The notes under the pieces: model-generated
Databases searched by the model: none
Told to the model about the DNA's origin: nothing
The model's input: only the letters and a program-made list of their open reading frames with translations
Part shown: positions 42,413-52,326 of the stretch, piece by piece
Position numbering within the stretch: position 1 is the stretch's first letter
Layout of the letters: each line of letters opens with the position of its first letter
Position numbers and translations under genes: made by a program
From: Glaciecola amylolytica
GTDB taxonomy: Bacteria; Bacteroidota; Bacteroidia; Flavobacteriales_D; Crocinitomicaceae
Assembly (NCBI GenBank): GCA_003856375.1
Contig: CP034120.1
Span: 1,116,001-1,180,000 of the forward strand
Direction of reading: 5' to 3'
DNA length: 64,000 bases

Positions 42413-43072
42413 TTAAAGTTTGTTTTTCAGAACCAATGTAGAGAAAAATCGCTCTACTGATTCACCTGTTTTTGTTTTTACGACTTCTGTTTGTTCATCC
42501 GCACGATCCAGCTGGAAGTTCGTTCCGGAAATGATCTCAAGAATTTCATCCGGATTGTAGAGTGTGAACCCGAAAGCGGTGAAAGGAAGCATTTCCATGA
42601 AACTGCGGTGAGCAAAGGTAAGAGCAAGTGTTCCGTTCGGTTTCAAAATCCGTGACAACTCGGAAAAAACCATTTTCGGATCTTTCCAGAAATAAATCGT
42701 GTTTACGGTGAAAACTTTGTCGACAGTATCTGCTTCGAGCGGCATTTTCTCTCCGTCATAAAGAAGGAAACGCGCTTTTCCGGATTCAAAAGCATTCCGG
42801 TTTAATTGTTTGGCTTCTTCGTGCATTAAAGTCGAAATTTCCAAACCTGTATAGTGAAGATCGTTTGATTGAGATAACAGAAAATCGAGATGCCCTGCGT
42901 TTCCATGACCCAATTCCAAAATGGAATCGCCTGCTGCTAATTGAAGGTTTGAAATGGAATTTTTGGTCATTCCGATATTGGTTTCATTCATCATTTCAGC
43001 AACTTCAATCCCTTTTTCTCCTGAAGGATTTCCTAGTTGAGCTGCGAGTGCTTCAAGCTGTTCTTTTTCCAT
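42413..43072 (-). CDS. Class I SAM-dependent methyltransferase
   Basis: A 219-residue methyltransferase of the Methyltransf_11 type. SAM motif I is ILELGHGNAGHLDFLL, with motif II LLYDGEKMPLEADTVDKVFTVNTIYFW and ILKPNGTLAL. The substrate is unknown; it precedes the OsmC gene by 1 bp. The segment from 43073 to 43246 carries a dispersed repeat. Confidence 0.88.
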   Translation of the reverse strand: MEKEQLEALAAQLGNPSGEKGIEVAEMMNETNIGMTKNSISNLQLAAGDSILELGHGNAGHLDFLLSQSNDLHYTGLEISTLMHEEAKQLNRNAFESGKARFLLYDGEKMPLEADTVDKVFTVNTIYFWKDPKMVFSELSRILKPNGTLALTFAHRSFMEMLPFTAFGFTLYNPDEILEIISGTNFQLDRADEQTEVVKTKTGESVERFFSTLVLKNKL

Positions 43073-43090
43073 GGGTTCTTTATTTACTAA

Positions 43091-43171
43091 ATTACGAATT
43101 ACGGATCATTGATTTCGATAGCTATCGGAATTTAATCCTTTTGAATTATTTGAACCTTTTTCATCGGGAAT
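43091..43171. repeat. Dispersed intergenic repeat, copy 2
   Basis: Matches 24477-24555 with about a dozen differences. It holds the perfect palindrome CGATAGCTATCG, which is damaged at one base in copy 1. Confidence 0.75.
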
Positions 43172-43246
43172 TGGCATTTCGTAATTAACAATTAATGTTC
43201 ACCTAACATTAAAGCAGTGGAATAAGGAGAATTTTGCAGAAAAAAA

Positions 43247-49171: not shown

Positions 49172-50542
49172 TTACAATGCTTTATCCAATAAATACACAA
49201 AAGCCGCCATACTTGCACAACCCAGTTCCAGTTCGCGTTTGTTGACACTTTCAAAAACATCACTTGCCGCATGATGGAAATCAAAATAGCGCTGAGAATC
49301 CGGTACAAAACCGAAAAGTGGAATTCCGTCGTAGGATCGTTTCAGCGGACTGATATCAACTCCTCCGTATCCGGCTGCAAAATGATGCAGTCCGTAAGGT
49401 TCCAGAATCGGGGCAAAGCCTTTGATCAGTTGAATATAGGATTCTTTTCCATCGCATTCAAATCCGTGTGGTGTAAAACCTCCACGATCGCTTTCTACAG
49501 CTGCAATTTGTTTTTGATTTTCTTTCTTAGCCCATTCTGCGTATGCAATTCCTCCCCGGTTTCCGTTTTCTTCGTTCATAAAGAAAACCACGCGAATAGT
49601 ATGTTTCGGTTTGATTCCGGTAGCTTTCAGAATTCTCAATGCTTCCATGCAGTGAACAATTCCTGCTCCGTCGTCGTGCGCACCTTCACCGGCATCCCAT
49701 GAATCCAGATGTCCACCAATAGTGATGATTTCATTTGGCTTTTCGCTTCCGGTGATTTCTCCCATGACATTGAACGAAGGTTCATCCGGGAAATCTCTGC
49801 AGTCCATTTCCACGATGAGGTTTACTTTTCCTTTGGAAAGTGCTTTGGAAAGTTCGTTAGACGAAACTGTTGATAAAGCCCCGGCAGGAATTTTTTTCGT
49901 TTCAGCTTCGTAATGCATGGAGCCGGTATGCGGAAAATGATCTTCGGGAAGAGCCAGGGAGCGGATGACAACACCAACAGCTCCCAGTTTTGAAGCTTCA
50001 ACAGCTCCTTCTCCGCGAATGCTGTAGCAGCCTCCGTATGCTTTGAATGTCACGATATCGGCAGGATTCATTGCCTGATTCAGAAATACAATTTTTCCCT
50101 GAACAGTTGTTTTCGATGCTTTTCTGAGTTCGTCCAGCGATTTGAATTCGATCACTTCTGCCTTGAGCATGCCGTTTGTTCCGATTGAACCTCCCAATGC
50201 AAGAATATCGACCGGGACAGGTTCTCCGGAAGCACTTTGAAACCAGGCTACTTCCTTGTTTCCTCTTTCCCAATGCGGAACCATGACCGGTTGCAGGTAG
50301 ATTTTGTCAAAACCATAGGCTTCCATTTTTCGTTTTCCCCATTCAACAGCCATCTGAGCCTGAGATGATCCTGACAAACGCGCCCCGATTCCTTTACATA
50401 ACGATCGTAAATCTTCATATGCGTTTCCTCTTAACAATGCTTCGTCAAAAAGCTGCCGGATTTTTAATGAATCACTTTGCTGGCCGTTTGCAGCTCCGAG
50501 AGAAAAAAGTGTGCAGATGAAAAATAGCTTACGAAATAACAT
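49172..50542 (-). CDS. M28 family zinc peptidase (secreted)
   Basis: A 456-residue aminopeptidase with PA-like insert. The ATG at 50542 (MLFRKLFFICTLFSLGAANGQ, signal peptide) is chosen; the frame is open further upstream only because it runs through the heptamer repeat. Metal ligands are in GGHLDSWDAGEGAHDDGAG, MNEENGNRGG, AVESDRGGF and FHHAASDVFE. It likely releases amino acids from peptides outside the cell or in the periplasm. DinB follows 2 bp later. Confidence 0.93.
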   Translation of the reverse strand: MLFRKLFFICTLFSLGAANGQQSDSLKIRQLFDEALLRGNAYEDLRSLCKGIGARLSGSSQAQMAVEWGKRKMEAYGFDKIYLQPVMVPHWERGNKEVAWFQSASGEPVPVDILALGGSIGTNGMLKAEVIEFKSLDELRKASKTTVQGKIVFLNQAMNPADIVTFKAYGGCYSIRGEGAVEASKLGAVGVVIRSLALPEDHFPHTGSMHYEAETKKIPAGALSTVSSNELSKALSKGKVNLIVEMDCRDFPDEPSFNVMGEITGSEKPNEIITIGGHLDSWDAGEGAHDDGAGIVHCMEALRILKATGIKPKHTIRVVFFMNEENGNRGGIAYAEWAKKENQKQIAAVESDRGGFTPHGFECDGKESYIQLIKGFAPILEPYGLHHFAAGYGGVDISPLKRSYDGIPLFGFVPDSQRYFDFHHAASDVFESVNKRELELGCASMAAFVYLLDKAL

Positions 50543-50584
50543 AACGGGAAGATTTGATTTTGCTCCGATGCGAAAATAGTAAAT

Positions 50585-50647
50585 GAATTGCGAATTGCGA
50601 ATTGCGAATTGCGAATTGCGAATTGCGAATTGCGAATTGCGAATTGC
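50585..50647. repeat. Nine-copy heptamer tandem array (GAATTGC)9
   Basis: Nine exact copies of GAATTGC followed by a damaged copy (GAATGC). Each heptamer advances the frame by one base, so all three forward frames read through it. It lies 42 bp upstream of the M28 start and next to the four-helix-bundle gene. Length variation by slippage is expected. Confidence 0.97.
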
Positions 50648-51129
50648 GAATGCATTGATCTTAGACACCAAGAGAATTTTACGGGTAGTTATTTAAGTTT
50701 ACTTCCTGCTGTTTTGATTATTGATGTTAGAATCCTCATTAATTCATCGCATAGCTTAATAAGTCTTGATGCAATTTCCTGTTTTAAGAAATCCGTTGCT
50801 TCAAGTAGATTTAACCAATAAAGTGTTTCGTTTGCTTCTTTTCGTGAAATCTGAAGTTTATGTATGAAATCCTTTGTTGATTGTCCATGAACAGCTTCGG
50901 CAATATTTGCTCCGATTGAAGTTCCTGATCTCAGAAGCTGCTTTGAAAGGACGAATTCTTTTTTTTCAGCAATCAACGATTTGTAAGTTTCAATGATTTG
51001 GATAGAAAAATCAAAGCTCTTTTTTTGAATAATATTTTCTGATATGTAAATAGTGTTTCTTACTTAAGATAATAAAAATTAGGATTTGAATCAATATTTA
51101 ATAGCAACAAATTCAACCATTCGCAATTC
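50641..51129. mobile_element. Putative four-helix-bundle gene unit bounded by 12-bp inverted repeats
   Basis: GAATTGCGAATG (50641-50652, the last heptamer plus) and CATTCGCAATTC (51118-51129) are exact reverse complements flanking a 465-bp interior that holds one gene. Four-helix-bundle (IVP) genes occur in 23S rRNA intervening sequences and as dispersed intergenic units. That this unit moved or was inserted is inference. Confidence 0.4.
50689..50976 (-). CDS. Four-helix bundle protein (23S rRNA-intervening-sequence type), start codon missing
   Basis: 95 residues from a TTG at 50976, carrying the family core KKEFVLSKQLLRSGTSIGANIAEA and ISRKEANETLYWLNLLEATDFL. The frame stays open to a TAA at 51064-51066. 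The extra codons encode the family's usual N-terminus (SENIIQKKSFDFSIQIIETYKS) but contain no ATG, GTG, TTG or CTG. An ATA at 51043-51045 sits where the initiator would be. Either it uses an ATA/ATT start or the gene is decaying. The bundle assembles as a pentamer in known relatives. Confidence 0.75.
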   Translation of the reverse strand: MIAEKKEFVLSKQLLRSGTSIGANIAEAVHGQSTKDFIHKLQISRKEANETLYWLNLLEATDFLKQEIASRLIKLCDELMRILTSIIKTAGSKLK

Positions 51130-51206
51130 TGAATTCGTAATTATCCCTCGTTACTGTCGCACTAACGTTTGTTGTAACTCAGTCTTCAAAAGCTTGAGCT
51201 TTTTCT

Positions 51207-51228: not shown

Positions 51229-52326
51229 ATGGCATTGAAATGCGGAATAGTTGGTTTGCCGAATGTTGGTAAATCGACATTGTTTAATTGTTTATCTAAC
51301 GCTAAGGCGCAATCTGCGAATTTTCCTTTCTGTACTATCGAACCGAATGTAGGAACTATTTCAGTTCCGGATCCTCGTTTGGAGAAATTGGAATCGATGG
51401 TCAATCCTGAAAGAGTGGTTCCTACCACCATGGAAATCGTTGACATTGCAGGTTTAGTGAAAGGAGCTTCGAAAGGTGAAGGTCTTGGAAATCAATTTTT
51501 GGCAAATATCCGTGAAACTGATGCGATTTTACATGTACTGCGCTGCTTTGAAGATGGAAACATTATTCACGTAGACGGACGTGTAAATCCGGTAAGTGAT
51601 AAAGAGATTATCGATATTGAACTTCAATTGAAAGATTTGGAATCAATTGAAAAACGCATTCAATCCTTAGCACGCAACCTGAAGTCGGGAGACAAGGAAG
51701 TGGTAAAAGAAAATGATTTGGCATTGGCAATCAAAGCTACTTTGGAGCAGGGGAAATCTGTTCGTTCCATGAGTTTTGATGAAAAAGAAGCAGAAATCGT
51801 TCAGAAATTCCAGTTGATTACATCGAAGCCGGTTATGTACGTTTGTAACGTGGAGGAATCTGCTGTAAAAACAGGAAACGCGCATGTGGAAGCAGTTCGT
51901 GAGGCTGTAAAGGATGAAAATGCTCAGATTCTGATTGTCGGAGCAAAAATTGAAGCGGATATTACAGAATTGGAAACATACGAAGAGCGCCAGATGTTCC
52001 TGGAAGAACTTGGTTTGGAAGAACCGGGAGTCAATCGTTTGATCCGTTCAGCTTATTCCTTATTGAATCTGCAAACGTATTTCACTGCAGGAGTGAAGGA
52101 AGTTCGCGCATGGACTGTTCCGATCGGTGCAACTGCTCCTCAGGCTGCAGGTGTTATTCACACTGATTTTGAAAAAGGATTTATTCGTGCAGAAGTTATG
52201 AAGTACGAAGATTACACGACCTTGGGTTCTGAAGCAGCTGTGAAAGAAGCAGGGAAATTTAAAGTAGAAGGAAAAGAATACATTGTGCAGGATGGAGACA
52301 TCATGCATTTCAGATTTAACGTTTAA
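51229..52326 (+). CDS. ychF: Redox-regulated ATPase YchF
   Basis: A 365-residue Obg-family P-loop NTPase. It has G1 GLPNVGKST, G2/G3 NFPFCTIEPN and DIAGLVKGASKGEGLG, and NVEES in place of NKxD. This G4 change is what gives YchF its ATP preference. A coiled-coil insert and C-terminal TGS domain (LQTYFTAGVKEVRAWTVP onward) complete it. It binds ribosomes and affects translation and oxidative stress responses. Confidence 0.96.
   Translation: MALKCGIVGLPNVGKSTLFNCLSNAKAQSANFPFCTIEPNVGTISVPDPRLEKLESMVNPERVVPTTMEIVDIAGLVKGASKGEGLGNQFLANIRETDAILHVLRCFEDGNIIHVDGRVNPVSDKEIIDIELQLKDLESIEKRIQSLARNLKSGDKEVVKENDLALAIKATLEQGKSVRSMSFDEKEAEIVQKFQLITSKPVMYVCNVEESAVKTGNAHVEAVREAVKDENAQILIVGAKIEADITELETYEERQMFLEELGLEEPGVNRLIRSAYSLLNLQTYFTAGVKEVRAWTVPIGATAPQAAGVIHTDFEKGFIRAEVMKYEDYTTLGSEAAVKEAGKFKVEGKEYIVQDGDIMHFRFNV

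Follow-up and report, generated by a model that had tools for sequence, protein, structure and literature searches.

An S23 gene between inverted heptamer arrays: a candidate dispersing unit with possible relatives in rRNA intervening sequences

The S23 gene of the window, its start codon and its flanking arms

The window analyzed here, a 64,000-nucleotide stretch of the 4.6-Mb, single-contig genome of Glaciecola amylolytica (G000; contig CP034120.1), carries a gene of the S23, or 23S rRNA IVP, four-helix-bundle family, located not in an rRNA gene context but between an M28-family peptidase gene and ychF [Table 1]. The product matches the Pfam profile PF05635 with an E-value of 1.3e-29 (102.9 bits against a cut-off of 33.8) and the TIGR02436 profile with an E-value of 2.3e-33 (114.7 bits against a cut-off of 24). 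Its AF2 model consists of four helices (pLDDT 92) and superimposes on PDB entries 2rld and 2gsc with TM scores of 0.90 and 0.82, respectively, thus displaying the four-helix-bundle fold. Entry 2gsc represents XCC0516, the S23 protein of Xanthomonas campestris pv. campestris ATCC 33913. Solved S23 structures contain five chains, and the S23 protein of X. campestris is described as a homopentamer in passages of PMC4990558. The fold is shared, at a TM score of about 0.75, with Avd (PDB 4dwl, 8ub7), which likewise assembles several chains per complex and is a ribonucleoprotein component of DGRs; binding of nucleic acid by S23 is therefore plausible. PF05635 and Avd are also treated together in PMC10053308. 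A search of PHROGs returned no match for the window protein and 'Avd protein of DGR' for the S23 protein of another locus (L006), and PADLOC yielded no match for three proteins. Unlike Avd, the window gene has the M28 peptidase and YchF as immediate neighbors, not a reverse transcriptase.

Table 1 Features of the S23 locus and of an arms-only remnant, in window positions
Feature	Position	Strand	Remark
Downstream gene for an M28-family peptidase, in the same direction as S23	49172..50542	-	start is the first ATG past the array
Downstream (3') arm, (GAATTGC)9.6 heptamer array	50585..50651	-	TRF, 100% matches
Exact 12-bp inverted repeat, array-side copy	50641..50652		GAATTGCGAATG
S23 / 23S rRNA IVP four-helix-bundle gene	50689..51045	-	118 codons from ATA, plus stop
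ATA at the initiator position	51043..51045	-	ATG in 7/7 aligned relatives
Conserved 5' leader of the window S23 subfamily	51046..51080	-	present at different genus sites
Upstream (5') arm	51118..51142	-	exact 12-bp repeat and decayed extension, 88% complementary to the array
ychF GTPase gene, divergent upstream neighbor	51229..52326	+	none of the S23 matches listed for the other 13 genus genomes is located here
Arms-only remnant	43090..43197		AATTACGAATTACG ... TTCGTAATTAACAATTAATG, by eye

An earlier note, made from the letters alone, had described the gene as devoid of a canonical start codon, and this holds. The minus-strand frame is open from 51063 down to its stop at 50689-50691, and no ATG, GTG, TTG or CTG is found in it upstream of the TTG that opens a 95-residue ORF. 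In alignment A2, the initiator column holds isoleucine in the window protein and methionine in 7/7 relatives; the leader ahead of it, read by eye, is conserved in the window, L065, L087, L068, L107, L106, L061 and L084. The coding frame itself is intact, and its divergence from relatives is not raised (pN of 0.13-0.17 to four relatives, compared to 0.168 between two intact relatives, L065 and L107). Given this lack of acceleration, either the start was lost very recently or the ATA still works. That the gene is intact and translated from its ATA would fit both the 118 open codons and these pN values, no larger than that of the intact pair, but we hold it to be doubtful given the ATG at the same position in all seven aligned relatives, the ATC found by eye at the initiator position of a broken copy (L106), and the breakage of 10 of the 63 genus S23 loci among the matches listed. 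The latter count, which does not include the window copy, defines as broken any locus with an internal stop or an open frame shorter than 100 residues; L067, L071, L072, L082 and L112, with no internal stop and open frames of at least 100 residues, were counted as unbroken. The window copy belongs to a subfamily characterized by AATTNCG arms (see below) and has either just lost its ATG or is read from ATA; we lean towards recent loss. Since a single assembly is the source, the ATA is possibly a sequencing error. The suggestion that the unit is decaying accordingly stands in part: the start is missing and broken copies occur in the genus, but the coding frame shows no acceleration.

The second exact copy of the 12-bp repeat lies at 51118-51129 (CATTCGCAATTC), and the repeats extend to 25 nt at 88% identity (50628-50652 / 51118-51142). 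The exact repeats reported earlier, one of them within the heptamer array, are thereby confirmed and lengthened, whereas the array that had been placed next to the unit is in fact its downstream arm. Among the period-7 arrays of the window, it scores highest (60; the sole other array above 11 scored 11.6). Because it is open in the M28 frame, ORF calling carries the peptidase through it (50543-50671) to a TTG at 50671. The inverted flank score of the gene, as defined below, reached 17.5, against control maxima of 14.5 for the 94 other ORFs of the window and 13.0 for 233 ORFs of other loci, and its own downstream flank ranked second among the flanks of 80 loci. S23 is the only gene of the unit, in which neither a known transposase nor a Y1/HUH gene was found. 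The arms-only remnant precedes a gene with a homologue in G013 that bears a broken S23 unit (L106). That gene (42572-43197) is about 8 kb from the window S23 unit, and in G013 the L106 unit is about 12 kb from ychF. A local move between the ychF site and the site homologous to that of L106 is possible.

Most S23 genes examined lie between inverted heptamer arms that follow the protein clade

In most of the loci examined outside one armless clade, the S23 gene lies between inverted arrays whose repeat unit follows the protein clade across sites. Flanks were scored by local alignment of the 300 bp upstream of a gene with the reverse complement of the 300 bp downstream, at thresholds of 12.5 and 14.5. 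Among 200 S23 loci, which are not independent trials because they were best-scoring or motif-selected and are related by descent, 140 scored above 12.5 (138 of the 196 distinct loci, four named loci duplicating genus loci) and 112 above 14.5, compared to 6 and 0 of 327 control ORFs. The respective proportions were 41/63 and 31/63 for the genus Fluviicola, 14/17 and 10/17 for other families of the order, 13/30 and 10/30 for the phylum sample (the best-scoring 30 loci from 148 phylum genomes), 63/80 and 52/80 for the named set (the best 80 of at least 318 loci from a protein-motif search), and 9/10 at both thresholds for plasmids (10 of the 25 plasmid records with a match: eight cyanobacterial, one from Bernardetia and one from Chlorohelix). 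The 63 genus loci stem from 67 PF05635 matches, of which two fell in loci already taken and two weak ones, in G002 and G003, were not listed. No arm pair above 12.5 was found in the other 60 of the 200 loci, including L053 and L055 of the window genome and L061 and L084 of the window subfamily. The window genome harbors four S23 genes; two of the other three have flanking repeats of their own by eye, and only L054 (16.0) passes the flank score, L053 and L055 failing it. No Rfam match was found in the 20 scanned of the 80 named loci.

The match between flanks was specific to orientation and locus. For the 63 genus and 17 order loci, the median inverted score was 15.0, compared to medians of 9.5 for the same flanks aligned directly and of 9.0 both for flanks taken from different loci and for neighboring ORFs. 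The partner flank of the same locus ranked first of 80 in 25 loci and among the top five in 57. On plasmids, the own flank beat the best foreign one in 8/10 cases, and a foreign flank fitted equally well or better in 2/10. In the named set, loci of the same subfamily share units, which inflates the mismatched-pair control; 38 of the 80 loci exceeded the 95th percentile of mismatched pairs and 19 the 99th. That slippage arrays merely happen to stand beside an ordinary gene, a reading to which the heptamer arrays standing alone in genus genomes would lend themselves, is extremely unlikely in view of flank inversion and matching far above those of the 327 control ORFs, of the way in which the unit follows the protein clade, and of the armless S23 clade, which serves as an internal control.

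The arms of above-threshold loci were arrays of a locus-specific 7-bp unit, or 8-bp unit in some, examples being GAATTGC, AATAGTG, AGACTAA, AATTGAG, GAGTTTT, GAAGTCG and CCAGTGA. Identity at a lag of 7 in the named set was 0.58, compared to 0.33 in shuffled sequence, with echoes at 14 and 21, and 7 was the best lag in 122 of the 126 arms of named loci over threshold. Of the 82 genus arms, 53 had a best lag of 7 and 21 of 8, together 74; for the 54 remaining arms, the figures were 38 and 10, together 48. The true length of simulated arrays was recovered, with a lower detection rate for short ones. Among detected arms, those downstream comprised five units in 26/55 of the named set and six in 3/55, and five in 18/42 and six in 2/42 of the other sets. 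The distribution was less sharp upstream, with five units in 19/65, four in 16/65 and six in 9/65 arms of the named set, and a peak at four units (13/37) in the other sets. Five heptamers per downstream arm match the five chains of S23 structures, a correspondence that is suggestive, not proof. The downstream arm of L084 has a palindrome, TCCCGATAGCTATCGGGA, embedded within its heptamer array, and at about position 4363957 of G000:C1 (L059), GAATTGC-like units occupy the loop of a hairpin (GGTTACAAAAAATTG...CAATTTTTTGTAACC).

In the genus tree, the window gene belongs to the ENIIQKKSFDF clade, which had AATTNCG-like arms at five sites, decayed to below threshold in L061 and L084; the HNFR clade had AAGAC/TTCAGGA arms at several sites. 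Protein identity, from which eight truncated S23 genes were left out, correlated with downstream-flank similarity (r 0.313; 45 loci, 935 different-site pairs, 0/2000 permutations). At shared sites, the own partner arm fitted better than that of the orthologue in 35 of 55 pairs, with five ties and 15 reverse cases, giving moderate support to the notion that the two arms may change together. Both the broken L106 and the intact L107 of G013 bear the same unlike arms, AATTCCT upstream and AATTACG downstream; thus, arms travel with the gene. One clade of 11 loci, the FDFEKLDVYQKAK clade (L055, L085, L082, L067, L100, L101, L074, L103, L062, L088 and L076), is without heptamer arms: 1/11 scored above 12.5, compared to 40/52 other genus loci, a contrast that was not preset, the clade having been picked by eye from the tree and the scores. 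Three S23-family matches occur within 9 kb in G012.

Arms without a gene, homologous sites and orientation

Arms are also dispersed without the gene, and homologous sites differ in whether they carry a unit or arms. Triplets of AATTNCG, counted as overlapping matches in the 14 Fluviicola genomes (G000 included), numbered 31 in G000, 34 in G002, 67 in G007, 16 in G001, 68 in G008 and 69 in G013, all with a listed ENIIQKKSFDF gene; of the eight genomes without one, six had none, G012 had 2 and G006 had 37, one weak S23 match of G003 being outside the listing used in this comparison. The KSFDFAL-SMEL subfamily is present in two genomes, where AATGNTN triplets numbered 20 and 18, compared to 0-1 in the remaining 12; the reversed AATGNTN pattern is not a neutral control, because it matches the complement of AATTACG arrays. 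As this co-occurrence of units and S23 subfamilies follows clades, descent is a confounder. Twenty array places chosen from the listing were read: solo arrays reached 13 units, and inverted doublets with unrelated interiors were found at seven places (L317, L318, L324, L332, L333, L334 and L336). Across the phylum, 12 of the 14 genomes with an AATTNCG match had a relative of the L107 protein, compared to 101 of 148 overall, and two (G078 and G175) had AATTNCG arrays and no such relative. AATTNCG is thus a weak marker of S23 phylum-wide, as expected if units vary by subfamily, and is no evidence for the link at that scale.

Presence and absence were compared at genus sites and on plasmids. The ychF gene was found in 14/14 genus genomes, and the S23 matches listed for the other 13 all lie elsewhere; the list lacks a weak match in each of G002 and G003. 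No S23 gene was found in the ychF-M28 gap of G012, G004, G005 or G010, the four genomes that keep the M28 neighbor; the gap of G012 holds by eye two arms about 35 bp apart and no gene. The site of L106 (G013), read by eye in seven other genomes, bears an arms-only allele in G001, apparent remnants in G000, G002, G007 and G008, and nothing clear in G006 and G012. On a Dolichospermum plasmid, an S23 unit lies between a helicase gene and the next gene; on three other plasmids, one of Calothrix and two of Nostoc, a methylase gene comes after the corresponding helicase gene, across gaps of 65, 65 and 24 bp that hold no unit. Clean ends with a target duplication were seen neither at the genus sites nor on the plasmids, the homologous sites in both cases being too diverged or carrying remnants. 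Most of these patterns could be due to loss, and since several genus sites are common to many species, movement would be rare. That the window unit had been recently inserted, as proposed earlier, is not demonstrated, because loss in the relatives accounts for the ychF site equally well.

Units were co-directional with both neighbors far more often than opposed to both (30:11 of 52, 35:2 of 47 and 46:8 of 80 loci, the neighbor being the longest ORF nearby and orthologous sites not being merged), a bias that points either to residence within transcripts or to counter-selection of antisense copies. In the window, the unit and ychF are divergent. The genes directly after the downstream arms of L009 and L013 we take, by eye, to be sufC and sdhB. 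On plasmids of Nostoc TCL26-01 (L352) and Anabaena cylindrica (L354), S23 units lie between cas2 and cas1, antisense to both, and on Nostoc plasmids (L356, L359/L368 and L361-L363) they lie beside XisH/XisI genes, the L356 unit adjoining xisI where relatives have xisH. Published accounts mention 18 IVP genes in cas loci (PMC3936711), IVP in 16S and 23S insertions of CPR bacteria (PMC11270868), four-helix genes in Arthrospira (PMC8700078), a four-helix gene between the guanylate kinase and nicotinate-mononucleotide adenylyltransferase genes of F. columnare (PMC5524665), and a similar distribution of TAACTGA arrays and XisH/XisI (MacGregor 2015, PMC4679880).

A candidate dispersing unit and its known counterparts

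We consider it probable that an S23 gene disperses together with its two inverted heptamer arms as one genetic unit, comparable to RAYT/REPIN systems, of which the rRNA intervening sequence would be one habitat. S23, with its five chains, would bind the arms, each subunit probably contacting one heptamer and each arm offering five, and this pairing would hold unit and protein together. Recognition of the arms would let the unit, and in trans the arms-only doublets, spread between genes and within operons, S23 standing where the transposase stands in RAYT/REPIN. The rRNA intervening sequence would then be a unit of this type residing in an rRNA gene. No catalytic site is known in S23, and the host or another element would thus have to supply strand cutting. 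Purifying selection on S23 (dN/dS of 0.04-0.11 in four of eight pairs, dS being saturated in the other four) indicates that the protein does something. Binding of the arms may resemble that of repeated triplets by the TRAP ring. TRAP, the trp RNA-binding attenuation protein, binds tandem short motifs as a ring, one motif per subunit; its fold is unrelated to that of S23, and the likeness is proposed as an analogy only. The mobile-unit origin raised in the earlier note, with its link to rRNA intervening sequences, is supported in a wider form, S23 genes with two arms recurring at different sites.

Movement in trans by Y1 transposases was rejected as an explanation: none of the 21 usable of 23 genus Y1 loci showed S23-type heptamers by eye. 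Five of the 21 scored above 12.5, with palindromic or REP-like repeats in L170, L173, L187 and L191 and an A-rich match in L180. The genus Y1 transposase genes of L173, L187 and L191 are each flanked by REP-like repeats upstream and downstream, an arrangement also found in RAYT systems.

Among the alternatives, S23 could be a post-transcriptional regulator and the heptamer arrays the binding sites of its regulon rather than the ends of a mobile unit. Purifying selection, the co-directional bias and the Avd fold would all suit a regulator, and one acting post-transcriptionally has been proposed for TAACTGA arrays near start codons (MacGregor 2015, PMC4679880). We find this unlikely, because inverted arm pairs flank not only the gene but also unrelated interiors, units are present in some species and missing in others, 10 of the 63 genus loci are broken, and the neighbors are unrelated genes, two units even lying antisense between cas2 and cas1. 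Less likely again is an RNA-level intervening sequence, in which the arms would pair in the transcript, RNase III would cut the stem and the unit would be tolerated as a self-excising insert in operon RNAs. The anatomy is the same as that of the Coxiella IVS (PMC4990558) and the co-directional bias fits; but G·U pairs were no more frequent than A·C pairs (53 and 59, respectively, in 68 arm pairs), leaving an RNA stem unsupported, and the unlike arm units of L106 and L107 would weaken such a stem. The RNA stem was therefore dropped as the main reading.

The proposed unit resembles several known systems, each in part. The rRNA intervening sequence of Coxiella is closed by a 28-bp terminal stem, carries tandem heptamers ahead of its S23 ORF and has been called a selfish element whose origin is unclear (PMC4990558); 23S rRNA intervening sequences with an S23p ORF are also known from Leptospira (Ralph and McClelland 1993, as cited in PMC3936711). 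As in the window, the S23 ORF lies inside terminal inverted repeats with tandem heptamers alongside; the window unit, in contrast, lies between protein genes, and the arms of S23 units consist of heptamer arrays whose sequence tracks the S23 clade, with arms-only copies dispersed in the genome. RAYT/REPIN systems (PMC2817692, PMC3116915) share with S23 units a gene between its own inverted repeats, a repeat that follows the protein, and dispersed singlets and inverted doublets with unrelated interiors. They differ in their HUH tyrosine transposase, of which S23 units are devoid, and in their repeats, which are palindromes with a conserved head, whereas S23 arms are tandem heptamers of period 7. 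Finally, TAACTGA, GGGAATC and cyanobacterial STRR arrays are, like S23 arms, 7-bp intergenic arrays, often of few units. GGGAATC and GGGGA(C/T)T arrays occur in Xanthomonas and Nostoc, and those of GGGAATC form 70 inverted pairs in X. campestris, as S23 arms do, and are 'generally' not associated with mobile elements in the account given there (PMC4692102). Unlike the published arrays, those described here bracket S23 genes; 'S23' and 'four helix' do not occur in the texts of PMC4679880 and PMC4692102. No report in the literature searched, which largely excluded subscription papers, connects heptamer arrays with the S23 genes that they flank outside rRNA, and an earlier description of the link elsewhere is possible.

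S23 may thus be the missing partner of 7-bp repeats in Bacteroidota, cyanobacteria and other bacteria. In its broadest form, put forward tentatively and with rather less than even confidence, the proposal would be that S23 units make up an unrecognized, transposase-free class of mobile elements across Bacteroidota, Cyanobacteria and others, in which a five-subunit ring reads five heptamers per arm and protein and heptamer co-evolve, STRR, TAACTGA and GGGAATC arrays being non-autonomous offspring and rRNA intervening sequences the members residing in rRNA. No origin has so far been agreed on for the heptamer arrays of cyanobacteria, Bacteroidetes, Beggiatoaceae and Xanthomonas, and no function has been assigned to S23 proteins or to rRNA intervening sequences; joining the proteins with the heptamers makes both testable. 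If true, the proposal would describe a REPIN-like system built on a protein that is not a transposase and would account for the 'four helix bundle protein' genes found among those of cas and DISARM-like loci.
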